A DNA stretch of 64,000 nucleotides from contig NZ_VMBG01000002.1 of the NCBI RefSeq assembly GCF_007559335.1, forward strand, positions 186,001-250,000, read 5' to 3'. A model generated the notes under the pieces. The model ran no database searches. It was not told the origin of the DNA and worked only from the letters and a program-made list of their open reading frames with translations. The DNA is from Rariglobus hedericola (GTDB taxonomy: Bacteria; Verrucomicrobiota; Verrucomicrobiia; Opitutales; Opitutaceae). Below are positions 16,854 to 28,594 of the stretch, piece by piece; positions within the stretch are counted from its first letter, which is position 1, and each line of letters opens with the position of its first letter. Made by a program: the position numbers and the translations under genes.

Positions 16854-18914
16854 ATGAAAATCCCTGCGCTGCTCCGTTCTCTGGTCGCCCGCCGTCATGG
16901 CGGCGTTGTTTTGTTTGTTGGACTCTTCATGCTGCTCGCGTTGGTCACCCGTATCGCGCTGCTGGCGCAGTCGGGGTGGGCGTTGGATTGGAATGCCACT
17001 CTGATCGCTTCCTTTGCGTGGGGTGCCTTGTTCGACCTCGGAGCGGCGCTGCTTTTTGCCGTGCCGCTGGCATTGGTTTTAACGCTGCTGCCGGCAGGCA
17101 TCTTCGAGCGCCGCTGGGCGCGGGCCGGCGCGCATGGGGTTTTTATCGGAGCGATCGGACTGCTGCTATTCAGCGCGGTGGCTGAGTGGTTTTTTTGGGA
17201 TGAATTCAGCACGCGCTTTAACTTCATCGCGGTCGATTACCTCGTCTATACGACCGAGGTGGTGGCCAACATCCGCGAGTCCTATCCGATGCCGGCGATT
17301 CTGGGGGTGATCCTGCTCGCGAGTGTCGGGCTGCACCTCTTGCTCGCTCGGACGGGGCTGATCGACTGCTGGCTGGAGGCGCCGCGCGTGACGACACGCC
17401 GACGTTATGTGCAAGGCGGCGCTTGGATGGCGGCGGCGTTGGTCGCGGGAGTGGCGCTCGATTCGAACCAGTTGCCCGCATTTGCCAACACCTACAATCG
17501 CGAGCTTGCGAAGAACGGCCCGTGGTCGCTGTTTGCGGCGTTTCAGCACAACGAAATCGATTACGACCAGTTTTACGCGAAGCTTCCCGTGGACGAGGCG
17601 TTTTCGCATCTGCGCACGGAACTGGCGCAGGACGGCAGCCTGCCGCTCGGTCTCAAAGACGCGCGCGACACGTTGCGTTACATCAAAAACGAAGGGCCCG
17701 AGAAACACCTCAACGTGATCCAGATCACGGTCGAGAGTCTGAGCGCCAGTTTCGTCGGCGCGTATAATCCCGATTCAAACCTCACGCCAAATCTCGATGT
17801 GCTCGCGAAGCAGAGTCTGGTGTTCGACAATCTCTACGCGACCGGCACGCGCACGGACCGCGGCATGGAGGCGCTGACCTTGTCGATGCCGCCCACGCCC
17901 GGACGTTCGTTGGTGAAGCGTCCGCACAACGAGAATCTGTTCACCCTCGGCTCGGTTTTTCGCAGCCGCGGTTACGACACGGCGTTCATCTATGGTGGCT
18001 ACGGCTACTTTGATAACATGAACACGTTCTTTGGCGGGAACGGCTATCGCATCGTGGACCGCGCCGCCGTCGCCAAGACCGACATCACCTTCGCCAATGC
18101 CTGGGGGGCGTGCGACGAGGACGTATTCAACTGGACACTACGAGAGGCCGACCGCTCCGCCGCCGCGGGCAAGCCGTTTCACTACTTCGTGATGACGACT
18201 TCCAATCACCGCCCTTACACGTATCCGGACGGTCGCATCGATCTGCCGTCGAAGATCTCCCGCCGCTCCGGCGCGGTGAAATACACCGACTACGCCATCG
18301 GAAAACTCATCCGCGACGCGTCGTCCAAGCCGTGGTTTAAAAACACCGTCTTCGTCATCGTGGCCGACCATTGCGCGTCCGTCGCGGGCAAGACCGAGCT
18401 GCCCGTTCAGAACTACCACATTCCGATGCTGGTGTATGCGCCCGGCGGGCAGGTCGCGCCCGGGCACATCGGCGATTTGATGAGCCAGGTGGATTGCGCG
18501 CCGACGATCCTCGGTCTGCTCAACTGGAGTTATGCCACGCGCTTTTATGGGTGGGACGTGCGCACCGCGCATGGCGACCGCCGCGCGCTCATCGGCAATT
18601 ATCAGAAGCTCGGGCTCTACGAGGAAGGCACGCTCGATGTGCTGAAGCCGGTGCGCGGTTACAGCGCCTATCGCTACGACCCCGTGACCTTCGCACTGAC
18701 CGGACGCCCCAAGGAAACCGAGGAACGCGACGAGACGATCGCCTACTACCAGACGGCCAGTTACCTTTATAAGAGCGGTGGTTATCGTGCCGTGAGCGAT
18801 GCCGATCAGACGGGCTACACCGCGCAGATTCTTGCGCTGAACCCGGATCGCTCGACCGCCGCCGTTTCCGCCCCCAAAACCACTGCGGACACTGCCGCTG
18901 AAATCATCCGATGA
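16854..18914 (+). CDS. LTA-synthase-like membrane sulfatase
   Basis: A 686-residue protein with about five N-terminal membrane helices (residues 18-200) followed by a large extracytoplasmic alkaline-phosphatase/sulfatase-fold domain, the layout of lipoteichoic-acid synthase, MdoB and related phosphoglycerol or phosphoethanolamine transferases. Metal and nucleophile segments are QITVESLSASF (about 290-300), ATGTRTDRGMEAL (about 329-341, with candidate threonine nucleophiles) and VIVADHCAS (about 501-509). It is coupled to a PAP2 phosphatase by an ATGA overlap. A role in adding phospho-groups to an envelope lipid or periplasmic glycan is likely. Upstream 11-nt repeats suggest phosphate control. 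Confidence 0.82.
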   Translation: MKIPALLRSLVARRHGGVVLFVGLFMLLALVTRIALLAQSGWALDWNATLIASFAWGALFDLGAALLFAVPLALVLTLLPAGIFERRWARAGAHGVFIGAIGLLLFSAVAEWFFWDEFSTRFNFIAVDYLVYTTEVVANIRESYPMPAILGVILLASVGLHLLLARTGLIDCWLEAPRVTTRRRYVQGGAWMAAALVAGVALDSNQLPAFANTYNRELAKNGPWSLFAAFQHNEIDYDQFYAKLPVDEAFSHLRTELAQDGSLPLGLKDARDTLRYIKNEGPEKHLNVIQITVESLSASFVGAYNPDSNLTPNLDVLAKQSLVFDNLYATGTRTDRGMEALTLSMPPTPGRSLVKRPHNENLFTLGSVFRSRGYDTAFIYGGYGYFDNMNTFFGGNGYRIVDRAAVAKTDITFANAWGACDEDVFNWTLREADRSAAAGKPFHYFVMTTSNHRPYTYPDGRIDLPSKISRRSGAVKYTDYAIGKLIRDASSKPWFKNTVFVIVADHCASVAGKTELPVQNYHIPMLVYAPGGQVAPGHIGDLMSQVDCAPTILGLLNWSYATRFYGWDVRTAHGDRRALIGNYQKLGLYEEGTLDVLKPVRGYSAYRYDPVTFALTGRPKETEERDETIAYYQTASYLYKSGGYRAVSDADQTGYTAQILALNPDRSTAAVSAPKTTADTAAEIIR

Positions 18915-19639
18915 TCACGCGCCGACCTTTTATTGATCGCACGCTGTGGCCGGTGTTCGCAGTGCTCGCCGGGCTGTTTCTGCTTTTCGAATTCACGCAG
19001 GTGGATTTGTGGGTGCAGGACCGGTTGTATGATTTCTCCGCGCACGCCTGGATGGTGAACGAGAAAGACCTGTGGCCGCGCATCTTTTTCTACACGGGAC
19101 CGAAGGTGCTGATCATTGCGCTGGCGGCCGGCTTGATGACCCTCGCGCTCGGGCCCGAGCGGTGGCGTGTTCGCGGGTCGTTCACCTTGAGGCGCTGCGA
19201 CATTTGGGTCGTTATCGCCACGCTGGCGACGGGACCGGCCTTGATCGCGACGAGCAAGGCCACGACCAACGTGTTTTGTCCGCGGGAGATTCGCCGCTAT
19301 GATGGCTTCGCCCCGTATGTGCGCGTGTTGGAATCCTATCCCGAGGGTGATCGTCCCTCGCGACGCGGACGCGGGTTTCCGGCAGGGCATGCCAGTGGCG
19401 GCTTTGCATTGCTGAGCCTCGCCGGGCTCGCGCGCAGTCGTCGCGGTCAACTCATCGGTGCCTCCATCGGCTTCGCGGTGGGCGGGGCGATGGGCGGCTA
19501 CCAAATGCTCAAAGGCGCGCACTACCTGAGCCATACCGTGATCACGGCGCTGGTGTGCTGGTTATTGTTTCTCATCTGGCGTCGCCTGCTGAAGGCCACG
19601 ACGGGTAATGAACAAAAATTAATTCCTGCTTCATCCTGA
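18911..19639 (+). CDS. PAP2-superfamily membrane phosphatase
   Basis: A 242-residue protein with about six membrane helices. PAP2 motifs are SKATTNVFCPREIRRYDG (C1-like), FPAGHASGGFALL (C2, with the catalytic-site histidine) and KGAHYLSHTVITAL (C3). The family dephosphorylates lipid phosphates at the outer face of the inner membrane, for example lipid A, phosphatidate or undecaprenyl diphosphate. C1 with a cysteine and C3 with GAHYLSH resemble the lipid-A-phosphatase-like branch. It is coupled to the sulfatase; such pairs are common in lipid A remodelling. Confidence 0.85.
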   Translation: MITRRPFIDRTLWPVFAVLAGLFLLFEFTQVDLWVQDRLYDFSAHAWMVNEKDLWPRIFFYTGPKVLIIALAAGLMTLALGPERWRVRGSFTLRRCDIWVVIATLATGPALIATSKATTNVFCPREIRRYDGFAPYVRVLESYPEGDRPSRRGRGFPAGHASGGFALLSLAGLARSRRGQLIGASIGFAVGGAMGGYQMLKGAHYLSHTVITALVCWLLFLIWRRLLKATTGNEQKLIPASS

Positions 19640-19650
19640 GTTCATCTCCG
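19618..19650 (+). promoter_or_regulatory. Second PHO-box-like 11-nt repeat set
   Basis: Units ATTAATTCCTG, CTTCATCCTGA and GTTCATCTCCG follow each other without gaps, starting inside the last codons of the PAP2 gene and ending 17 bases before the yceI-type gene. The two right-hand units share the TTCATC core and the 11-base period seen at 16786. The left unit matches weakly. The distance to the start codon is short for an activator site. Confidence 0.35.
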
Positions 19651-19667
19651 TCGGTTAACGTATCGCC

Positions 19668-20216
19668 ATGAAATTACTCCCGCTTCTGATTGCCGGCCTG
19701 TTGCCGGTTTTCGCGATCGCGGCTCCCTCGCCGTTGGCCATCGATCCAGGCCAGTCGCACATCGAAATCGCGGTCAAGGCCACCGCTGCTTCGTTCACAG
19801 GAAAACTCGACGCCTACACCGCGGTGATCGCCGTCGAGTCGGGCCACGTCACCTCGGCTACGTTCACATTCAACTTCGCCGATGTGCGCACCGGCAAGGA
19901 AGCGCGCGACGAGGCCATGAACGAATGGCAGGAAACCCCGAAGTATCCGAAGGCAGGCTTCACCTTGAAATCCATCGACACCGCGGCCGACGGAAAACTC
20001 ACCGCGCGCGGAGTGCTTACGCTTCATAATGTCGCTCGCGCGATCGCCTTTCCCCTCTCGATCACGAGCGATCAAAAAATCTATGCGATCGACGGTCATG
20101 CGGTGTTCGACACGCGTGACTTCGGTCTGCCGATCATCCGCAAGTTCGGCCTGCTCAAAGTCGACCCGCTCGTGGAAGTTCACTTCCACCTGCAAGGCTC
20201 CGTCAACGTCCGCTAA
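19668..20216 (+). CDS. YceI-family periplasmic lipid-binding protein
   Basis: A 182-residue protein with a cleavable signal peptide (about 1-18, ending AIAAPSP). The mature part starts LAIDPGQSHIEIAVKAT, and the typical YceI elements FTFNFADVRTGKEARDEAMN and SIDTAADGKLTARGVLTLHN follow. YceI proteins are periplasmic lipocalin-like barrels that bind isoprenoids such as polyprenyl quinones. The gene is followed after 15 bases by a polyprenyl synthetase gene, which makes an isoprenoid ligand plausible here. Confidence 0.88.
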   Translation: MKLLPLLIAGLLPVFAIAAPSPLAIDPGQSHIEIAVKATAASFTGKLDAYTAVIAVESGHVTSATFTFNFADVRTGKEARDEAMNEWQETPKYPKAGFTLKSIDTAADGKLTARGVLTLHNVARAIAFPLSITSDQKIYAIDGHAVFDTRDFGLPIIRKFGLLKVDPLVEVHFHLQGSVNVR

Positions 20217-20231
20217 CTCCCCGATTATCCC

Positions 20232-21128
20232 GTGAACTCGTCCGCCGCTTATCTGCGCCTGTGCGACGCGCTGATGGAAAACAGTCCCGCTCTGCTGGCT
20301 ACCGATCAACTCCTGCGCGATACGCTGACCCTCTCGTCAGGCAATCCCGGTAAACTCATCCGAGCCCGTCTCGTGCTGGCCGCCGCCGATGCGCACGGCC
20401 TCGAAGAAGGCCCCGCCGAACGGCTCGCCTGCGCGGTCGAATATTTTCACATCGCCTCGCTGCTCCTCGACGATCTCCCGTGCATGGATGATGCCTGGAC
20501 GCGTCGCGGCCGTCCCTGCGCCCATAAACTTTACGGCGAATCCTCCGCCATCCTCGGCGCGCTCGCCTTCATCAACCGCGCATATGCGCTCACCGGCTTC
20601 GTGTTTGCCTCGCACCCGGCGGAGATCCGCTTGCAGGCGACGGCGTGCCTCGATGCGTGTCTCGGCCCCGCGGGACTCGTCGGCGGACAAGCTGCCGATT
20701 TGAGCTTCGCGCAAAGCGATCGCTCGGCTCGCGAAGTCGCGATGATCGCCGCGCGCAAGACCGGTTCGCTGTTCTGGCTCGCGGTGTATTTCCCGGCGCT
20801 GCTCGGGGCGCCCTCGCAGAAGGAGCTTCATGCGCTGAAGGCGCTGTGTGTTTACTGGGGCCTCGCTTATCAGGCGGCCGACGATCTCCAGGATGCGTTG
20901 CTCAACGCATTCGAAAGCGGAAAAACCGCCGGTCGCGACCGCGCGCTCACGCGTCCGAATCTCGCCCACGCTATCGGCGTGCCGGCAACGCAGGCGCGCA
21001 TCGCACGGCTAATGGAACAGTCGCGCCGCGTGGTGGAACGGCTCGGCGCGACATCGCAACGCTGGGGTTATCTCGGCGGGTTTCATCGTGAATTCGTCGA
21101 GCCGATGGTCTGCGCCGTGGCGGCCTGA
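20232..21128 (+). CDS. Polyprenyl (farnesyl/geranylgeranyl-type) diphosphate synthase
   Basis: A 298-residue trans-prenyltransferase starting at GTG. The first aspartate-rich motif is LLDDLPCMDDAWTRRGRP (about 77-94), matching the DDLPCMDDD motif of IspA/CrtE-type short-chain synthases. The second is YQAADDLQDA (about 213-222). These bind the magnesium-diphosphate of allyl and homoallyl substrates. KLYGES and LVGGQAADL are additional family segments. Only 15 bases separate it from the yceI-type gene and 35 from the ABC permease gene, so the three probably form one transcript. Chain length cannot be read with confidence. Confidence 0.85.
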   Translation: MNSSAAYLRLCDALMENSPALLATDQLLRDTLTLSSGNPGKLIRARLVLAAADAHGLEEGPAERLACAVEYFHIASLLLDDLPCMDDAWTRRGRPCAHKLYGESSAILGALAFINRAYALTGFVFASHPAEIRLQATACLDACLGPAGLVGGQAADLSFAQSDRSAREVAMIAARKTGSLFWLAVYFPALLGAPSQKELHALKALCVYWGLAYQAADDLQDALLNAFESGKTAGRDRALTRPNLAHAIGVPATQARIARLMEQSRRVVERLGATSQRWGYLGGFHREFVEPMVCAVAA

Positions 21129-21163
21129 GCCGCGGACCCGTCAAACCACGAAACGGCGAACTC

Positions 21164-22276
21164 ATGCGTTTTCTTTCCCTTATCTTCACCAACCTCCGAC
21201 GCCACCGGCTGCGCGCGCTGATCGGCGTGGCGGGCATCGGTTTCGGTGTGGCGGCGATGCTGGCGATTCTAGCGATCGTCACGGGTGCGATCGGCATGTT
21301 TGAACGCATCCTCTCGACGGACAGTCATTATCTGGTGTTTGAGAAAAATGTGTCGGACCTGTTTTTCAGCTCGGTCACGACGGAGCAGGTGCGCACGATC
21401 CGCGCACTGCCTCAAGTCGAGGCGGCGCATCCACTGCTGTTCGGCATCGTGTCCGCGCCGGGAAATCCGGTAGTGACGTGCTTCGGCATCGAGGCCGACG
21501 ACCCGCGCCTCGTGCGCGGCGAGTGGCGCGCGGGTTCGCGTGACACCTTCGGCAAGACGACCGGTGAAGTTTATCTGGGCGCGCGTTCCGCAGAGTTTCT
21601 CAAGGCGAAGTTCGGCGAGACCGTCGCGATCGGCCGGGGCACGTTCAAAGTGGGAGGCATTTTCAAAAACGAAAACGGCTTCGAGGATGGCGGCGTGTTT
21701 TTGCCGCTGCCGGATGCGCAGGCATTTTTCCATCGCGAAGGCGCGGCCTCGGTCGTGGCGGTGAAGTTGCGCGATCAAGCCCAAGGTGCGGCGTTCAAGG
21801 CGGCGGTGGAAGCGGCGAACCCCGGCGTGATCGCGCTGGAAAACCGCGAGTTCAGCCAGAGTTACAACAGCTTTAAGATCTTGAATTTCACGGCGTGGGC
21901 GGTGGGCATCTGCGCGTTCTTCCTGGGTGGGTTGGGCGTGGCGAACACGATGTTGCTCTCGGTGTTCGGGCGCATCCGCGAAATAGCGGTGCTGCGCGTG
22001 TGCGGATTTTCGGAGCGGCAGGTGGCCGCGTTGATTTTCGGCGAGGCGGGGGCGATTGCGTTGGGCGGGCTGGTGCTCGGATTTTCAATCGGACTGCTGA
22101 TGCTCGCGGTGGTGGCGCACATGCCGCAGTTCAACGGCTACGTGCAGGCCCGCGTGGAGCCGCTCGTGGTGGTGGGAATTGTGGTGACGGCCCTGATCAC
22201 AGCGATCGCCGGAGCGATTTACCCGGCCCGCTTCGCCTCACGCATCCAACCCGCGGAGGCCCTAAGATATGAATAA
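21164..22276 (+). CDS. ABC transporter permease (MacB/LolC-like, FtsX domain)
   Basis: A 370-residue permease with TM1 at about 20-45, a periplasmic MacB-type core domain (about 48-240) and three C-terminal helices forming the FtsX domain (about 250-360). The coupling segment GRIREIAVLRVCGFSERQVA (about 270-289) is the site that contacts the ATPase. It ends YPARFASRIQPAEALRYE, a classical terminus of this family. Such mechanotransmission ABC systems extract lipoproteins or move hydrophobic molecules through the periplasm. The partner ATPase lies 114 bases downstream, across an intergenic palindrome. Confidence 0.87.
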   Translation: MRFLSLIFTNLRRHRLRALIGVAGIGFGVAAMLAILAIVTGAIGMFERILSTDSHYLVFEKNVSDLFFSSVTTEQVRTIRALPQVEAAHPLLFGIVSAPGNPVVTCFGIEADDPRLVRGEWRAGSRDTFGKTTGEVYLGARSAEFLKAKFGETVAIGRGTFKVGGIFKNENGFEDGGVFLPLPDAQAFFHREGAASVVAVKLRDQAQGAAFKAAVEAANPGVIALENREFSQSYNSFKILNFTAWAVGICAFFLGGLGVANTMLLSVFGRIREIAVLRVCGFSERQVAALIFGEAGAIALGGLVLGFSIGLLMLAVVAHMPQFNGYVQARVEPLVVVGIVVTALITAIAGAIYPARFASRIQPAEALRYE

Positions 22277-22316
22277 ATCTAATCTACATAACTCATTTAT
22301 GCGACAAGGCGTAAAA

Positions 22317-22347
22317 CCAGTTTGTAACTTATTAAGTTACAAACTGG
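22317..22347. repeat. 31-nt perfect palindrome (copy 1)
   Basis: Two 15-base arms, CCAGTTTGTAACTTA and its exact complement, meet at a single central T. It lies between the ABC permease and ATPase genes in locally AT-rich DNA. No T run follows on either strand, so it is not an intrinsic terminator. Its central 23 bases are repeated exactly at 47562-47584. It is best explained as a protein-binding operator for the downstream redox operon, or as a dispersed repeat. Confidence 0.85.
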
Positions 22348-22390
22348 CGGGGTGGCCGATTGCCTCCGATTTGGAAAAGGGGGCGGGGTT

Positions 22391-23068
22391 ATGAGCGGGC
22401 GTGGGGAGGTGATTGCGAGCGTGCGGGAGGTTTCGAAGACCTATGACGGCGGGCGTATTCAAGTGCTGCGTGAAGTCAGCCTTGAGGTGCGGGCCGGTGA
22501 AATGGTCGCGCTGTGGGGGGCGTCGGGGTCGGGCAAGAGCACGCTGCTCCATCTGCTCGGTGGTCTCGACAAACCGGATACGGGCACGATGTCCGTGTGC
22601 GGCTTCGATCCGTGCGTGGAGGCGAGCCGCAACACGCTGCGCCGCCACCATCTCGGGTTCGTGTTTCAACTGCACAACCTCATCCCCGATCTCACGGTCG
22701 AGGAAAACATCCGCGTGCCCGCGCTGGCCGCCGGACGCAGTCGCGAAGATACCGCCGCGCGCGTGCGCGAACTGGCGGCGCAAGTGGGGTTGTCGCACCG
22801 CATCGGCCATCGTGTGCAGGATCTCTCGGGCGGCGAGCGCCAGCGCACCGCGATCTGTCGGGCGCTCATGAATGCGCCGCGGTTGTTGCTGGCGGACGAG
22901 CCGACGGGATCGCTCGACGAGCAGACGGGCGATGCGATTTTTGCGTTGTTGAAAGAACTCGCCGCGCGCGAAAACGTGGCGGTCGTGCTGGCGACGCACG
23001 AGCGACGGTTCGCCGAGGCGTGCAATCGCATCGTGCGCGTGCGCGACGGCCGGTTGTCCGAAATCTGA
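22391..23068 (+). CDS. ABC transporter ATP-binding protein (LolD/MacB type)
   Basis: A 225-residue ATPase. Walker A is GASGSGKSTLL (about 43-53), the signature is LSGGERQRTAIC (about 146-157), and Walker B with catalytic glutamate is LLLADEPTGSLDE (about 165-177). The H-loop is VLATHERR. Sequence style is that of LolD, FtsE and MacB ATPases, matching the upstream permease. An ATG 13 codons upstream is in frame, but the ATG at 22391 precedes the conserved start and follows a GGGGG-rich ribosome site. It is first in the redox operon: its stop is two bases before the next ATG. Confidence 0.88.
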   Translation: MSGRGEVIASVREVSKTYDGGRIQVLREVSLEVRAGEMVALWGASGSGKSTLLHLLGGLDKPDTGTMSVCGFDPCVEASRNTLRRHHLGFVFQLHNLIPDLTVEENIRVPALAAGRSREDTAARVRELAAQVGLSHRIGHRVQDLSGGERQRTAICRALMNAPRLLLADEPTGSLDEQTGDAIFALLKELAARENVAVVLATHERRFAEACNRIVRVRDGRLSEI

Positions 23069-23070
23069 TC

Positions 23071-24327
23071 ATGAGCGGCCTCCGACAGTTCGGCGGCACA
23101 GTCGGCCGGATCGCGGAGTTCCATGCGATCGGCTGGCTCGTCGCAGCCAATGCGGTGGGCGTGCTGCTCGCGGCCGAGTTGGTGTGGCCCGCGTGGGGCG
23201 ATGCGCTCGCGCCGCTGACCTACGGACGTTGGATGCCGTTGCACATGAACTGGCAGCTTTACGGTTGGTGCGCGCTGCCGCTGGTGGGCGTGTTGCTCGC
23301 GTGGTGTATCGATGAACGGCATCCGCAGGCGAAAACGCATGTGCGCATCGCACTGGGCGCGTGGTCGCTGGCGCTCGTGCTCGGCGGAGTGGCGTGGCTG
23401 GCGGGAGTCACCAGCGGGAAGCTGTTTCTCGACTGGCACGGCTGGGCGCGGGCGTTGTTGTCTATGGCGATGGTGGTGTTGTGGACCGTGTGCGCGGCGC
23501 ATGCGTGGTGGCGGCGCGGTGAATCGGGCGGACGCGGAGCGGATTGGTTGCGCGCGGGTTTTCTCGGCGGGCTGCTATTTGTGCCGGGACTGCTTTACTG
23601 GTCGGCGGGGCGCGAGGTCTATCCGACGGTCAATCCCGACAGCGGTGGCGCGACAGGCGCGAGTCTGCTGGGATCGACGCTCGGGATCGTGATGATTTTC
23701 GGACTGCTGCCGGTGATGCTGCGCGTGAACAAAGTGCGGGCCGGGTGGCGCACCGATTGGTTTTGGGTGGCGTTTGCGGTGTCGGTCGGGGTGTTTGCGG
23801 TGATCGATCATGGCAATGCATCGCATCATGCGTGGGGGCAGATGCTCGGGCTTGGATTGCTTCTGCTGTGGGTGCCGCTGGCGTGGATGTATTTCCGGTT
23901 GTTCGCGTGGGATGTGACGGCGCGTCCGTGGCTGGCGGCGGCGTTTGGTTGGTGGTTGCTCCTGGTCGTCACGGGACTGCTCACGTTTTTACCGGGGTTT
24001 TCGGAGCGTTTGAAATTCACCAACGGACTGGTGGCGCATGCGCATCTGGCGATGGCGGGACTGCTGACGAGCGTGAACTTCGCTATTCTGCGACAACTCT
24101 CGCCGGCACCGGAGCCGCGCGGGAACTTCGGGTTGTGGCAATGGGCGTGTGCCGTGCACGTGGTGGCGCTGCTGATGCTGGGCTGGTGGGAGCGCGACTA
24201 TGCGGGTGACCTGTTTCGCAGCGAGGCGTGGACACAGGGATTCTATGGTGTGCGGCTGGCGGCGGGTGCGGGCATGCTGGTGGCCTCGGTGCGGTGGCTG
24301 TGGGCGCGAAAGGCACGCACGTCATGA
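23071..24327 (+). CDS. Heme-copper-oxidase-like (CcoN-related) membrane protein, atypical
   Basis: A 418-residue integral membrane protein with about 11-12 helices. PLHMNWQLYGW (56-66) fits helix II of subunit I of cbb3-type and NO-reductase-type heme-copper oxidases, with H58 as candidate low-spin heme ligand. VAHAHLAMAGLLTS (321-334) fits helix X with H323 and H325. DHGNASHHAWGQMLGLG (about 245-262) lies where helix VII is expected. The helix VI WxxHN segment, which gives a CuB histidine and the crosslinked tyrosine in cbb3 enzymes, is replaced by NPDSGGATGASLLGSTLG. It may therefore bind b-type heme without being an oxygen reductase. It overlaps the next gene by four bases and precedes a c-type cytochrome fusion. 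Confidence 0.7.
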   Translation: MSGLRQFGGTVGRIAEFHAIGWLVAANAVGVLLAAELVWPAWGDALAPLTYGRWMPLHMNWQLYGWCALPLVGVLLAWCIDERHPQAKTHVRIALGAWSLALVLGGVAWLAGVTSGKLFLDWHGWARALLSMAMVVLWTVCAAHAWWRRGESGGRGADWLRAGFLGGLLFVPGLLYWSAGREVYPTVNPDSGGATGASLLGSTLGIVMIFGLLPVMLRVNKVRAGWRTDWFWVAFAVSVGVFAVIDHGNASHHAWGQMLGLGLLLLWVPLAWMYFRLFAWDVTARPWLAAAFGWWLLLVVTGLLTFLPGFSERLKFTNGLVAHAHLAMAGLLTSVNFAILRQLSPAPEPRGNFGLWQWACAVHVVALLMLGWWERDYAGDLFRSEAWTQGFYGVRLAAGAGMLVASVRWLWARKARTS

Positions 24328-24728
24328 AGCCATTGATTTTGAAAGGGGCGCGTCTGCTGGCGATGGGTGCGGGGGCGATGGATTTCGCAACCGGGCTGGC
24401 GCTGGTGTTCGTGCCGGCGCGGGTGCTGCCGTGGATGCACGTGGCGGTGCCGGCGGGTGACGCGTTGGTTTTTCTGAGGTGGATGGGCGCGTTTGTGGGA
24501 GCGGTGGGCGCGAGTTACCTGCTGGCGTGGTGGCGCGGCGGAGAGGCGCGGTTGCGAGCGGTATTCGAATTTACGATACTCTTCCGGCTGGCGGCGGGCG
24601 GGTTCAGTGCGGCGGCCATCGGGGTGGGCTGGCTACCGGTCGCGTGGGTGAGCGTGCCGGTGACGGATCTCGCGCTGGTGGTGGTGCAGGCGCTGTTATT
24701 GAGAAGGAGGGACTGGGGCCATGATTGA
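24324..24728 (+). CDS. Small membrane protein of the redox operon
   Basis: A 134-residue protein with about four hydrophobic helices (10-32, 45-66, 78-98 and 105-125) and few charges. It has no heme or metal motif that I can see. Its start overlaps the stop of the oxidase-like gene (ATGA) and its end overlaps the cytochrome fusion gene by eight bases, so it is certainly part of the same transcript. It may be an accessory subunit of the membrane redox complex. Family not recognised. Confidence 0.7.
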   Translation: MKPLILKGARLLAMGAGAMDFATGLALVFVPARVLPWMHVAVPAGDALVFLRWMGAFVGAVGASYLLAWWRGGEARLRAVFEFTILFRLAAGGFSAAAIGVGWLPVAWVSVPVTDLALVVVQALLLRRRDWGHD

Positions 24729-26562
24729 GCGCAGGTTTGAGCGTAAGGTATCGGCTGCGGCGGTCGTGGTGATCGCGGCGACGTATGGGTATTTTCTGAT
24801 TTTTGCGGAGTTCTCGTTTTTGGAATTGCTGCGCATGTCCGTAGGTGGCGACGGCCTGCGTCCGGCGATGGGGGCGTTGTGTGCGGGAGGAATCGTCGGG
24901 AGCGTGGTGGCCGCGTGGCGGTTTCGCTTGGAGATGTATGCGCGGTCTTTGCAGCTGGGCGCGGTGGCGTGCGCGGTGGCGGCGGGGCTTGCGTGTGTGC
25001 AGGCGTCGGCGTGGACGGCGGTGGCGATCGGGCTTTCGCTGGGCTGGCTTACAGTGACGTTGACGTCGGGATTGAGGGCGGTGCTCGGCGTGGAGCGGCT
25101 CGGGCTCGTCGTGGGATTAGGAACGGGGCTGGCATATGCGTTGTGCAATCTGCCGGTGGTGTTTCACGCGACGCCGCGCATCCAGGCGGGAATCGCCATC
25201 GCGCTCATGGTGCTGGCGGTTGTCGCGGCGGTGGCGCTGGGGAAGGGCACGGCGGAGTGCTCGGAGGCCCCGGATTTTAAAGCGAGGCCGGCGACGTGCT
25301 GGGTGGTGATTTTTATGGCGTTGGTGTGGATGGATTCGGCGGCGTTCTACATCATTCAGCATACTCCGGCGCTGTTGGCGGAAACGTGGAGCGAGACGAC
25401 GAGCCTGTGGATCAACGCGACTATTCATCTCGCGGTGGCGGTGGTTGCGGGGCGATTGATTGATCGCGGTTGGCTGGGACGCATCGCGATCGGAGCATGG
25501 GTGGGGCTGGCGGTGGCGTGCGGATTGTTGACGGCGAGCATGCAGGCGTTTGCCGGCGCGGAGATTTTATACACTGCGGGTGTGTCGCTCTATTCGGTGG
25601 CGCTGGTGTATTATCCGGCGAGGAGCGGGCGGCCGTGGCTGGCGACGGCGGTGTTTGCGGTGGCGGGCTGGATCGGATCGGCGCTCGGCATCGGCATGGC
25701 GCAGGATCTCAACGCGGTGCCGGTGTGGTTCGTGGTCGCGGCGGGCGTGGTGGTGATCGGGCTGTTGATCGTGAGGCAGCACGGACGCCACGGCTTGCGG
25801 CAACCGCTGTTGGTGCTGGCGCTGCTGGGCGTATTGGGAAGCCGCGAGGTTCGCGCGGACGAGGAGGCGCAGCTGATTGCGCGCGGTCGCGAGGTGTTCA
25901 TCGGTGAAGGCTGCATTCATTGTCATTCGCAGTTTGTGCGGCCGGGCACCGTGGATGTGACGCGCTGGGGACCGGAGAAGCCGCTGGTGGAAATGATCAC
26001 CGGTGCGCCACCTTTACCCGGCAACCGTCGACAAGGCCCCGACCTCGCGCAAGTGGGCAACCGGCGTTCGCCGGAATGGAACCGTCTGCATTTGATGACG
26101 CCGCGCGAGGTGTCGCCGGGATCGCGTATGCCGTCGTATGCGCATCTGTTTCGCGAGGGTGACGGGCGAGGCGATGCGTTGGTGGCTTATCTGGCGTCGC
26201 TCGGTGCGGAAACGCTGGAGCGGCGGTCTGCACAGGTGCAGGCGTGGAAACCCGCGACGGATGTCGTGATCAATGAGGCCAAAGGAGCAGGGTTGTTTGC
26301 GCGGCTCTGTGCGAATTGCCACGGAGACGAAGGGCGAGGCGACGGCGTGCTGACGGCTCGATTGAGCATGCATCCGCCGGATTGGTCGCTCGGAGCGTGG
26401 CGACGGGTGGATGCAACGGATGAGGCGGCGTCAGTGGCGCGAATCATCAAGTTCGGTCTGCCGGGATCGCCGATGGCGGGACATGAATATCTGCGAGACG
26501 AAGAAGTGGTTTCGCTCGCGCGGCACGTGCGAAGCCTGCAGCGTGGCGCGAAGGCCCCATGA
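24721..26562 (+). CDS. MFS-like membrane domain fused to two c-type cytochrome domains
   Basis: A 613-residue protein. Residues 1-375 contain about 11-12 hydrophobic helices, arranged like a major facilitator. Residues 385-490 are a monoheme CcoO-like cytochrome: GREVFIGEGCIHCHSQF carries the heme site C398-I-H-C401-H402, then FVRPGTVDVTRWGP, and an SRMPSY methionine. Residues 520-605 are a second cytochrome with CANCH (C530-C533-H534) and a likely distal methionine in GSPMAGHE. The cytochromes must face the periplasm. In cbb3 oxidases the CcoO partner has one helix; here it is replaced by a transporter-like domain. It is coupled to a response regulator gene by ATGA. It probably accepts electrons from, or gives them to, the oxidase-like protein. 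Confidence 0.82.
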   Translation: MIERRFERKVSAAAVVVIAATYGYFLIFAEFSFLELLRMSVGGDGLRPAMGALCAGGIVGSVVAAWRFRLEMYARSLQLGAVACAVAAGLACVQASAWTAVAIGLSLGWLTVTLTSGLRAVLGVERLGLVVGLGTGLAYALCNLPVVFHATPRIQAGIAIALMVLAVVAAVALGKGTAECSEAPDFKARPATCWVVIFMALVWMDSAAFYIIQHTPALLAETWSETTSLWINATIHLAVAVVAGRLIDRGWLGRIAIGAWVGLAVACGLLTASMQAFAGAEILYTAGVSLYSVALVYYPARSGRPWLATAVFAVAGWIGSALGIGMAQDLNAVPVWFVVAAGVVVIGLLIVRQHGRHGLRQPLLVLALLGVLGSREVRADEEAQLIARGREVFIGEGCIHCHSQFVRPGTVDVTRWGPEKPLVEMITGAPPLPGNRRQGPDLAQVGNRRSPEWNRLHLMTPREVSPGSRMPSYAHLFREGDGRGDALVAYLASLGAETLERRSAQVQAWKPATDVVINEAKGAGLFARLCANCHGDEGRGDGVLTARLSMHPPDWSLGAWRRVDATDEAASVARIIKFGLPGSPMAGHEYLRDEEVVSLARHVRSLQRGAKAP

Positions 26563-27227
26563 AAATCCTCATCGTCGAAGACGAACGCAAAGTGGCGCAG
26601 TTTGTGGAGCGGGCGCTTGCTGAACAAAGTTACACGCCGCGCGTGGCGGGGAGCTGCGCGGCGGCGCGGGATGCGCTGGCCGAGTCGCCTTACGACGCCG
26701 TGGTGCTGGACATCGGACTGCCCGACGGGGACGGTTTGCAATTGTTGAAGGAGTGGCGGGCGAGCGGCTTTAACGAGCCGGTGCTTATCCTCAGCGCCCG
26801 CGACGCGGTGACGGACCGTATCCACGGTTTGAATCTGGGCGCCGATGACTATCTGGCGAAGCCGTTCAGCATCGATGAGCTGCTCGCGCGCGTGCGTTCG
26901 CTGTTGCGACGCAAGGCGGGCAACAAGACGACGGTGCTGGAGCATCGCGGGATCCGCATGGATTTGCTGGCGCGGGTGGTGACGTATCAAGGCGCGGCGG
27001 TGGAACTGACGAGCCGCGAATTCGCGCTGCTGGAACTGTTTTTGCAGAACGCGGGACGGGTGCTCACGCGGACCTTAATTGCGGAGCGCGTGTGGGAGGC
27101 GTCGTATGACATGGAGACAAATCTGATCGACGTGTATGTGCGCAAGTTGCGGCAGAAATTCCCGTCGGTGGAAGGCGCGGAGCCTTTGTTCAAGACCGTG
27201 CGCGGGACGGGATATCAACTCGCATGA
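26559..27227 (+). CDS. OmpR/PhoB-family response regulator
   Basis: A 222-residue regulator. The receiver domain has acidic residues in VEDERK (7-12), the phosphoacceptor aspartate in VVLDIGLPDGDG (about 48-59) and the lysine in DDYLAKPF. The C-terminal winged helix spans about 125-222, with LTSREFALLELFLQ and DVYVRKLRQK. It overlaps the cytochrome gene start-to-stop and the kinase gene, so it is encoded with the operon it probably controls. Style is that of the CusR/TctD branch. Confidence 0.9.
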   Translation: MKILIVEDERKVAQFVERALAEQSYTPRVAGSCAAARDALAESPYDAVVLDIGLPDGDGLQLLKEWRASGFNEPVLILSARDAVTDRIHGLNLGADDYLAKPFSIDELLARVRSLLRRKAGNKTTVLEHRGIRMDLLARVVTYQGAAVELTSREFALLELFLQNAGRVLTRTLIAERVWEASYDMETNLIDVYVRKLRQKFPSVEGAEPLFKTVRGTGYQLA

Positions 27228-28594
27228 TCGGCCCGTATACACGCCGGTTGATGGTGCGGTTTTCCGCGCTGGTGACGGTCACCACGGTGATCGTGTTGCT
27301 CGCGGGGGGACTGCTCCTCGAGCGGGAAATGTTACGCAGCATGGAAGGCATGCACGAAGTCGAGGCGGACGAAGTGTTCGAGGTGTTGCGCGATCATCCG
27401 GGCTTGAAGGGCGATGATCTGGCGGGGCGCATCGACACCAAGCTCGGCAGTGATGCGGCGCTGTATTTTATCCAGATTCACGATGATCGCGGGGCTATTC
27501 TCTACCGCTCGGAAAACCTCGGGGATGCGGTCATGCCGGACCTGAGCCGGATGGAGGAGAACGAGCACGTGCTGGCCGAGTTGCCCGGGGTGGGCGGCGT
27601 GCGGTTGTCGGAGTTTCGAGAGGGTGAATGGCATGTGCAGATCGCCAGCCGCCTTAAGCCTGTGCACCGCATTCTGACGAATTATGCGAAGGTGAGTGCG
27701 CTGCTCGTGCTGGGCACGGCGGTGGCCAGCCTGGGTCTGGGTTATGCGTTCAGCCGGTTTACGCTGAGGCCGGTGCGGGCGATCGAACTCACGGCGCGGC
27801 GCATCAGCGCGGACAACTTGCGCGAACGGATTCCGGTGCTGGCGGTGCGCGATGAACTGGCTGATCTCGCGATGTTGCTCAACCAGATGTTCGACCGTCT
27901 GGAAGGCTCTTTTGAACAGGTGAAGCGGTTCACCGCGGATGCTTCGCACGAGTTAAAAACTCCGCTGGCATTGATCCGTCTCAATGCGGAAAGATTACGC
28001 ACGCGCCTGGCCGGCGATCCGGAGGCGGTCGCGGGGTTGGAGGACCTGCTGGAAGAAATCACGCGGATGAATCGTATCATCGAGAGCCTCTTGTTCATCG
28101 CGAAGGCGGAGAGCGGTGCGCTGTTGCTCGATTTGAAAGAGCACGATGTGCGGGCGCTGCTGGCGCCCTTTGTCGAGGATGCGCGGGTGCTGGCGGAGGA
28201 TCGCGGCGTGCGCTTCGAACTGGCGCGTGACGATGCGGGTTCGCTGCGGCTGGAGCCGGCGTTGCTCCGGCAGTTGCTGCTGAATCTGGTGGCCAACGCA
28301 CTCAACGTGTCGCCGGCGGGCGGACTGGTCACGCTCGAGTCGGTGCAGACGGAGCACGGCTGGTGGTTCATCGTGACCGACGAAGGCCCGGGTTTGCCGG
28401 CCGCCCAGCTGGAAAAGATCTTCGAACGCTTTGTGCGCTTTGAGCCCGCGACGGGTGAAAATCGCGCGCGTGGGCATGGGCTGGGCCTAGCGATTTGCCG
28501 CAGCATTGCGGAGCTGCACGACGGAGAGATTCGCGCGGAGAACCGCACGGACGGACGGAGCGGATTGCGGGTCGTGGTGGCGCTGCGCCGCTAA
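27224..28594 (+). CDS. Sensor histidine kinase (HAMP, CusS-like layout)
   Basis: A 456-residue membrane kinase: TM1 about 12-32, a periplasmic sensor of about 120 residues, TM2 about 158-180, HAMP starting FTLRPVRAIELTARRIS, phosphoacceptor histidine near residue 242 in ASHELKTPLALIR, N box LLNLVANALNVSP, and G boxes DEGPGLP and GHGLGLAIC. The organisation matches the Cus/heavy-metal sensor kinase type, but the periplasmic domain gives no metal motif. Its stop overlaps the stop of the convergent MBL hydrolase gene by four bases. Partner is the response regulator just upstream. Confidence 0.9.
   Translation: MIGPYTRRLMVRFSALVTVTTVIVLLAGGLLLEREMLRSMEGMHEVEADEVFEVLRDHPGLKGDDLAGRIDTKLGSDAALYFIQIHDDRGAILYRSENLGDAVMPDLSRMEENEHVLAELPGVGGVRLSEFREGEWHVQIASRLKPVHRILTNYAKVSALLVLGTAVASLGLGYAFSRFTLRPVRAIELTARRISADNLRERIPVLAVRDELADLAMLLNQMFDRLEGSFEQVKRFTADASHELKTPLALIRLNAERLRTRLAGDPEAVAGLEDLLEEITRMNRIIESLLFIAKAESGALLLDLKEHDVRALLAPFVEDARVLAEDRGVRFELARDDAGSLRLEPALLRQLLLNLVANALNVSPAGGLVTLESVQTEHGWWFIVTDEGPGLPAAQLEKIFERFVRFEPATGENRARGHGLGLAICRSIAELHDGEIRAENRTDGRSGLRVVVALRR

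Follow-up and report, generated by a model that had tools for sequence, protein, structure and literature searches.

A recurring redox-and-transport cassette with a cbb3-like oxidase relative in Rariglobus hedericola: a possible membrane redox complex for isoprenoid lipid

Relatives of the heme-copper oxidases are usually labelled as respiratory enzymes. PMC9113575 reports YceI-family lipocalins with octaprenyl compounds or ubiquinone-8 and describes the YceI lipocalin BcnA acting with the cytochrome b561 LcoA against lipid peroxidation; re-reduction of the YceI-bound quinone by LcoA is a cycle that its authors suggest and did not test. In Cbp2D a YceI domain is combined with c-type cytochrome domains (PMC8981238), and redox-coupled import has been proposed for MamX, MamZ and MamH (PMC3971196). 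The locus described here lies in a 64,000-nucleotide stretch of Rariglobus hedericola (contig NZ_VMBG01000002.1, positions 186,001 to 250,000; hereafter the window, from whose first base coordinates are counted), and combines an oxidase-like protein, which we call COX1L, with an MFS-cytochrome fusion, a YceI lipocalin, a predicted polyprenyl synthase and an ABC transporter pair. The cassette is neither a standard terminal oxidase operon nor an artefact, and our tentative reading is that these genes specify a membrane complex for the redox chemistry of an isoprenoid lipid, derived from a repurposed cbb3 oxidase.

A recurring gene cassette

Eleven plus-strand genes span 16854-28594 of the window, with neighbours that overlap or are separated by at most 114 bases. 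The longest gap, 114 bases, lies between the permease stop and the ATPase start, and the six genes from the ABC ATPase to the kinase overlap or lie two bases apart (start codons of the window genes were chosen by us). The recurring core consists of the first seven genes listed here, which are followed in the window by a two-component pair.

19668..20216, + strand: YceI-family lipocalin, recurring core (PF04264, E 4.5e-19)
20232..21128, + strand: predicted polyprenyl diphosphate synthase, resembling farnesyl or geranylgeranyl diphosphate (FPP/GGPP) synthases, recurring core (PF00348, E 7.2e-37)
21164..22276, + strand: ABC permease of the LolC/MacB (FtsX/LolC) type (PF12704, PF02687)
22391..23068, + strand: LolD-type ABC ATPase, ATG at 22391 (PF00005, E 1.3e-33; LolD model 230.9 bits, below its cut-off of 307.75)
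23071..24327, + strand: COX1L, oxidase-like protein with a CcoN fold (H58, H323, H325; A197, D246 and H247, no complete CuB triad)
24324..24728, + strand: small membrane protein of no named family, ATG at 24324 and stop at 24728 (no Pfam match)
24721..26562, + strand: MFS-cytochrome fusion (MFS part, helix, CcoO/FixO heme domain, second cytochrome c domain)
26559..27227, + strand: OmpR-family response regulator (PF00072, PF00486)
27224..28594, + strand: membrane sensor histidine kinase, CusS/CopS-like below cut-off (PF00512, PF02518, PF00672)

COX1L relatives are present in 11 of the 56 genomes searched nearby, its own genome counted, and in a draw across the phylum 26 of 387 genomes gave a match, seven of them only via CcoN-type paralogues, which leaves 19 of 387. 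A scan with two peptide patterns and one genome per species yielded 116 stretches encoding a relative, the best 80 of which were kept as named loci (L numbers are our handles). The 77 rows of a quick COX1L tree comprise 60 Verrucomicrobiota, 11 Acidobacteriota (carriers include Terriglobus roseus, Edaphobacter modestus, Acidipila rosea and Thermoanaerobaculia bins), two Bdellovibrionota, one row titled Rhodanobacteraceae and three ungrouped rows including the window; the Rhodanobacteraceae row is nested within the Terriglobus clade, perhaps as a mis-binned contig. Viral contigs and plasmids contained no match to the COX1L protein of the window, the viral scan consisting of six exact peptide patterns.

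Linkage was counted in 79 of the 80 loci (L127 has no COX1L match), each gene being scored only where the flank was long enough and called absent when more than 6.5 kb away. Same-strand partners within that distance of COX1L are YceI in 39 of 45 testable loci, the polyprenyl synthase in 55 of 65, the permease in 63 of 70, the ATPase in 67 of 75, the small protein in 65 of 71, MFS in 61 of 64 and the cytochrome in 60 of 62; by this rule L131 has no prenyl synthase and L087 and L091 have neither MFS nor cytochrome, though these lie further off in the locus. Gene order is the same in most loci mapped, with YceI following the cytochrome gene in six of the ten Terriglobus-clade rows. The same gene set is thus shared across phyla, so that its recurrence is not a matter of chance. 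In L054, L055 and L057 (three of four genomes fetched, all of one genus) a single reading frame encodes the COX1L, small, MFS and cytochrome parts, which argues that they make one complex, and L095 has COX1L and the small protein in one frame.

A sequence-only reading of this DNA had proposed a new redox-transport unit comprising the permease and the six genes downstream of it. Those genes are present and packed as claimed, but the unit was drawn too short, as YceI and the polyprenyl synthase were omitted. Its view of a redox-plus-transport unit distinct from terminal oxidase operons stands as well (the unit recurs, and to our knowledge it resembles no cbb3, aa3 or bd operon), although it overlooked the derivation from cbb3 described below. 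No description of the cassette was found among the matches listed (titles and abstract openings) in open-licence PubMed Central.

The oxidase-like protein and its metal site

COX1L lies at the edge of what sequence searches recognize. The Pfam COX1 model gives 20.3 bits against a cut-off of 34.8 and matches 39 of 77 COX1L members at E <=0.1, and a whole-genome COX1 search found three other COX1 genes and missed that of the window. A profile search retrieved solved CcoN structures at E 0.0014 and 0.5, the second beside a chance-looking match at 0.93. The structural model (predicted local distance difference test, pLDDT, 93.5; predicted template modelling score, pTM, 0.92) matches cbb3 chain 9g83_t at E 7.5e-10 and 3mk7_A at E 6.6e-9 in Foldseek, and superimposes on 3mk7_D with Z 28.5 over 389 residues, a root mean square deviation of 4.1 and 15% identity over the fold; NorB (4xyd) is tied with CcoN in the fold comparison (Z 27.9). 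COX1L is accordingly a distant CcoN relative lacking a normal CuB site. Together with the CcoO/FixO heme domain of the fusion, this makes the earlier statement that there is no classical oxidase subunit too strong.

Ligand positions were compared in an alignment of 77 rows, made of 76 of the 80 named loci and the window (L100 and L107, partial, and L127 and L134, below the score limit, were excluded). Among 14 control rows, L002, L029, L032 and L035 have canonical ligands and were used in the tree, where a long branch separates COX1L from these four CcoN-type rows; L001 was unsuitable and the rest are divergent. The helix-II histidine H58 is present in 77 of 77 rows, the first helix-X histidine H323 in 76 of 76 readable rows and the second, H325, in 65 of 76, and these low-spin and b3 heme positions in the window match those of the four controls.

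The CuB site is different. At the positions that correspond to CuB, and to FeB of NorB, the window has A197, D246 and H247, and all three histidines occur in one of 77 rows, L092. HMMER places the CuB histidine pair at 246-247 and MAFFT at 244-245; the HMMER placement was used, along with the GHN/GHS and HH motifs seen in L088, L092 and L096. Under a lax count that leaves room for misalignment (any His at 188-205 plus HH within 238-257) five of 77 rows qualify and the window does not, while an HH pair within 242-249 occurs in three, alongside H197 only in L092. Both H197 and H247 are retained in L088 (on the same contig as L058) and L096, and also in L059 and L060, which are outside the alignment. 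Position 252 is His in 72 of 77 rows and position 246 Asp or Glu in 50. N252 accompanies H197 in all three aligned H197 rows and in L060, and L059 has His at both positions. The pattern looks like the shift of one ligand from helix VI to the VII-VIII loop, although there are few H197 rows and they are related.

An alternative is a heme / non-heme metal reductase with a remodelled second metal site, its His and carboxylate ligands shifted from the classical CuB positions toward the helix VII-VIII loop to form a new catalytic centre, for example for nitric oxide, peroxide or another small molecule. The apparent intermediates with two or three CuB-type histidines, the frequency of H252 and D/E246, and the pairing of H197 with N252, as if the histidine at one position had taken over from that at the other, all speak for it. 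However, D/E246, H247 and H252 occur together in just 21 of 77 rows and the ligand set differs by clade; N252 is also found without H197 in L112 and L142, and the three aligned H197 rows are close relatives in the quick tree. We regard this alternative as unlikely.

Other oxidase relatives were seen alongside this family. In L030, L033, L036, L037, L038 and L039 (six of the 11 CcoN-type rows L029-L039) the helix-II histidine is kept and the helix-X pair and CuB ligands are lost, and degenerate CcoN paralogues thus coexist with the COX1L family in Verrucomicrobiota. A further CcoN-like gene of the same genome as the window, G000:C4:144514-145749 (L003; L065:8410-9876), has lost the usual heme and CuB histidine positions in the alignment; its neighbours encode a multiheme cytochrome, a large molybdopterin-like protein and NrfD-like proteins, and a FixO-domain protein comes after it, an arrangement that we take to resemble an alternative complex III cluster.

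The fusion protein, lipid-related genes and flanks

MFS and cytochrome parts share one frame in 65 of the 80 named loci, some of the others being cut by contig ends. The fusion alignment (63 rows) contains 62 of these 65 proteins and the window, L085, L098 and L145 being incomplete. In the model of the window protein (pLDDT 90.4, pTM 0.80), residues ~1-360 are an MFS transporter by fold (Z up to 31.4), although the MFS_1 family matches only 14 of 63 members at E <=1; the fold comparison bears on this part, and the cytochrome part is assigned by sequence. A long helix (362-396) leads to a CcoO/FixO heme domain (C398xxCH402, M470) that scores 98.2 bits against PF02433 (cut-off 29.6) over profile positions 49-143 of 219, i.e. 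the heme domain only, and matches 3mk7_B at E 2.7e-23; the NCBIfam ccoO model gives 94.1 bits, below its cut-off of 200.65. For the second cytochrome c domain (C530xxCH534, M585), 6h5l_B is a closer match (E 3.7e-13) than solved CcoP (3mk7_C, E 8e-6). As this is one further heme domain and the CcoP model reaches 28 of 179.95 bits, a diheme CcoP was not found, and the earlier statement that CcoP is lacking is a fair one. Both CxxCH motifs and M470 are present in 63 of 63 rows and M585 in 62 (with one gap), and FixO and cytochrome c matches occur in the fused part of all 63; no ferric-reductase family is among the 25 of 30 families shown for that part.

D205 and H236 of the MFS part are also invariant (63 of 63 rows), which suggests a specific substrate. 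The cassette could be a redox-coupled importer, in which a metal ion or other small substrate enters through the MFS part and is reduced or oxidised by the attached cytochromes, as in the MamZ precedent (PMC3971196). We think this quite improbable. The in-frame joining of an MFS fold to cytochromes, the two invariant residues and the CusRS/CopRS-like two-component system fit an importer, but MFS and cytochrome are separate genes in L058 and L060, no MFS match was found in L047, L049, L050 or L082, and YceI and the prenyl synthase are left unexplained. Nor are the copper motifs of CcoA and CalT (MxxxM and HxxxM, from PMC6362234) a feature of these proteins, as both occur together in one of 63 MFS parts, with MxxxM alone in 16 and HxxxM in five, counted irrespective of helix position.

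That the cassette is an unusual but functional cbb3-type terminal oxidase, or helps to assemble the normal cbb3 oxidase of the genome, is very unlikely: the CcoN fold, the CcoO heme domain, and the presence in the genome of a strong COX1 gene (525.9 bits) and of a frame matching both COX1 and full-length FixO, by position a CcoN-CcoO fusion, would suit it, but the CuB triad is incomplete in 76 of 77 rows, the poorer of the two CcoN profile matches is no better than chance-looking, and the branch to the four controls is long.

The YceI, polyprenyl synthase and Lol-like ABC genes favour isoprenoid or lipid chemistry over metals. The catalytic aspartates in the two Asp-rich motifs of the polyprenyl synthase (D80, D81, D86 and D217, D218, D221) are present in 63 of 63 scored rows; its best NCBIfam models are below cut-off, and it is one of three PF00348 genes in the genome. 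No cytochrome b561 is among the ten cassette proteins scanned, and PF01292 has no match in the genome at E 0.001 in a search that matched eight of 14 controls, so that COX1L could take the place of b561. Of the 20 aligned members of the small membrane protein (19 of 71 listed loci plus the window), one has a match to DUF4345 at E 0.012, and there are equally weak matches of others to unrelated families.

Among testable loci, 19 of 59 have a response regulator directly 3′ of the cytochrome gene and seven of 53 have a divergent one upstream, six of these in the Terriglobus clade. Inducible control is therefore common, not universal, and outside the definition of the cassette; the built-in CusRS-style control of the sequence-only reading is found in the window and is no fixed part of the system. 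A role in metals had been suggested there too, for which the sole source is the similarity of the response regulator and kinase to heavy-metal models, below curated cut-offs (211.6 of 279.2 bits, and 231.4 of 292.55 bits for the kinase with TIGR01386); metal import is kept here only as the alternative described above. In Terriglobus roseus a short gene with weak PepSY_TM-like matches (L103:6514-6975; 22.6 bits, below cut-off) is placed between divergent two-component genes and the cassette.

Upstream of YceI, the run in the window begins with two further genes.

16854..18914, + strand: sulfatase-fold membrane protein, first gene of the run (PF00884, E 4.2e-41), presumably resembling lipoteichoic acid (LTA) synthase
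18911..19639, + strand: PAP2 phosphatase, lipid A phosphatase-like (PF01569, E 1.6e-11; NF028538 118.1 bits, below its cut-off of 275)

The first is labelled eptA in neighbour maps of related loci, and both are linked to the cassette only in some Opitutaceae-type loci. The pair (16854-19639 in the window) is upstream in L040, L044, L077, L084 and L104 and downstream in L079 and L081, an envelope link. Clustering of neighbours for further recurring genes was swamped by antisense frames, and frames in the gaps of L116, L131, L108 and L087 were set aside (a comparable gap exists in L091). One frame that diverges from YceI (L144:6064-6567) belongs to a 21-locus cluster, many of whose members occupy the cassette edge at an identical offset; it matched no Pfam family at E 0.01. 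One acidobacterial locus has an MMPL-family transporter gene downstream of the cassette (L108:14537-16969), the frame being in a six-locus cluster.

A possible role and its described relatives

In the reading that we tentatively prefer, a membrane redox complex for isoprenoid lipid, COX1L would bind b-type heme, probably two copies, and the fusion would carry two c-type hemes on the periplasmic side, in its two cytochrome c domains. We propose that there is no cbb3-style reduction of oxygen, because the copper-oxygen site appears from its residues to be dismantled. The complex would instead exchange electrons with cytochrome c on one side and a prenyl lipid or quinone on the other. The polyprenyl synthase would supply the tail of this lipid, the LolCD-like ABC pair would extract it from the inner membrane, and the YceI lipocalin would be its periplasmic carrier, so that oxidised envelope lipids could be quenched or repaired or another reductase supplied. 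A linked small substrate may be moved by the MFS part, and the two-component system, where present, may switch the operon on under envelope or redox stress.

Several observations weigh against this proposal. H325, which should be the second ligand of the low-spin heme, is missing from 11 of 76 readable rows (all ten of the Terriglobus clade, plus L094), and D/E246, H247 and H252 are possibly a remodelled metal site. Both heme pairs of the oxidase fold sit on one side of the membrane, so COX1L is no obvious stand-in for the transmembrane wire of a b561. YceI is a broad family with two further copies in the genome, and binding of a quinone or prenyl compound by COX1L or by the cassette YceI is putative, by analogy. 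No cassette gene is near COX1L in every testable locus, and since the polyprenyl synthase, the ABC pair or both are missing from several loci (e.g. L133), synthesis and export cannot all be essential.

A bolder form of the proposal, of which we are doubtful, is that the heme-copper oxidase fold has been re-ligated to a new redox centre, the helix VI CuB histidine being lost and a VII-VIII loop histidine gained with intermediates alive in Opitutales, and that with isoprenoid synthesis, export and a lipocalin it constitutes an undescribed class of periplasmic lipid or quinone oxidoreductase. A multi-phylum branch of oxidase relatives with the oxygen site dismantled and isoprenoid and lipocalin genes attached would be a new use of the fold; it would offer a natural series for the loss or relocation of a metal site and a handle on envelope protection or wiring in Verrucomicrobiota and Acidobacteriota. 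It also cautions against tallying PF00115-like or FixO matches as terminal oxidases.

Among described systems, the cbb3 oxidase (CcoN/CcoO/CcoP) shares with the cassette the CcoN fold, the heme-ligand positions in helices II and X and the CcoO heme domain, whereas the cassette differs in its incomplete CuB triad, low identity, fused MFS, isoprenoid and lipid gene neighbours and a second c domain that is weakly CcoP-like. Because the CuB and CcoP features were looked for and not found, we class it as cbb3-derived rather than as a member. NorB has a fold tied with CcoN, but its three-His FeB site is absent in 76 of 77 rows and the partner here is CcoO-like. CcoA and CalT differ in the motif pair that all but one of the 63 MFS parts lack. 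MamZ, an MFS protein with a predicted ferric-reductase domain according to PMC3971196, is similar in joining MFS to a redox part, which in the cassette is a c-type cytochrome. Cbp2D of Cellvibrio japonicus combines YceI and c-type cytochrome domains, in that case in one protein, but is cellulose-binding and linked to a lytic polysaccharide monooxygenase (LPMO); electron supply to LPMO, considered because of Cbp2D, was rejected as the host genome has no LPMO_10 match (the one LPMO family searched, matching one of 14 controls). In LcoA-BcnA, a YceI lipocalin likewise stands beside a membrane b-type heme protein (a predicted one here), perhaps cycling an isoprenoid quinone. The cassette partner is a cbb3 derivative with c-type cytochrome domains rather than a cytochrome b561, and a prenyl synthase, an ABC pair and MFS are added. 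By this analogy we infer that COX1L and the cytochromes may replace the b561 partner, in a mode that would resemble LcoA-BcnA without membership of that system.

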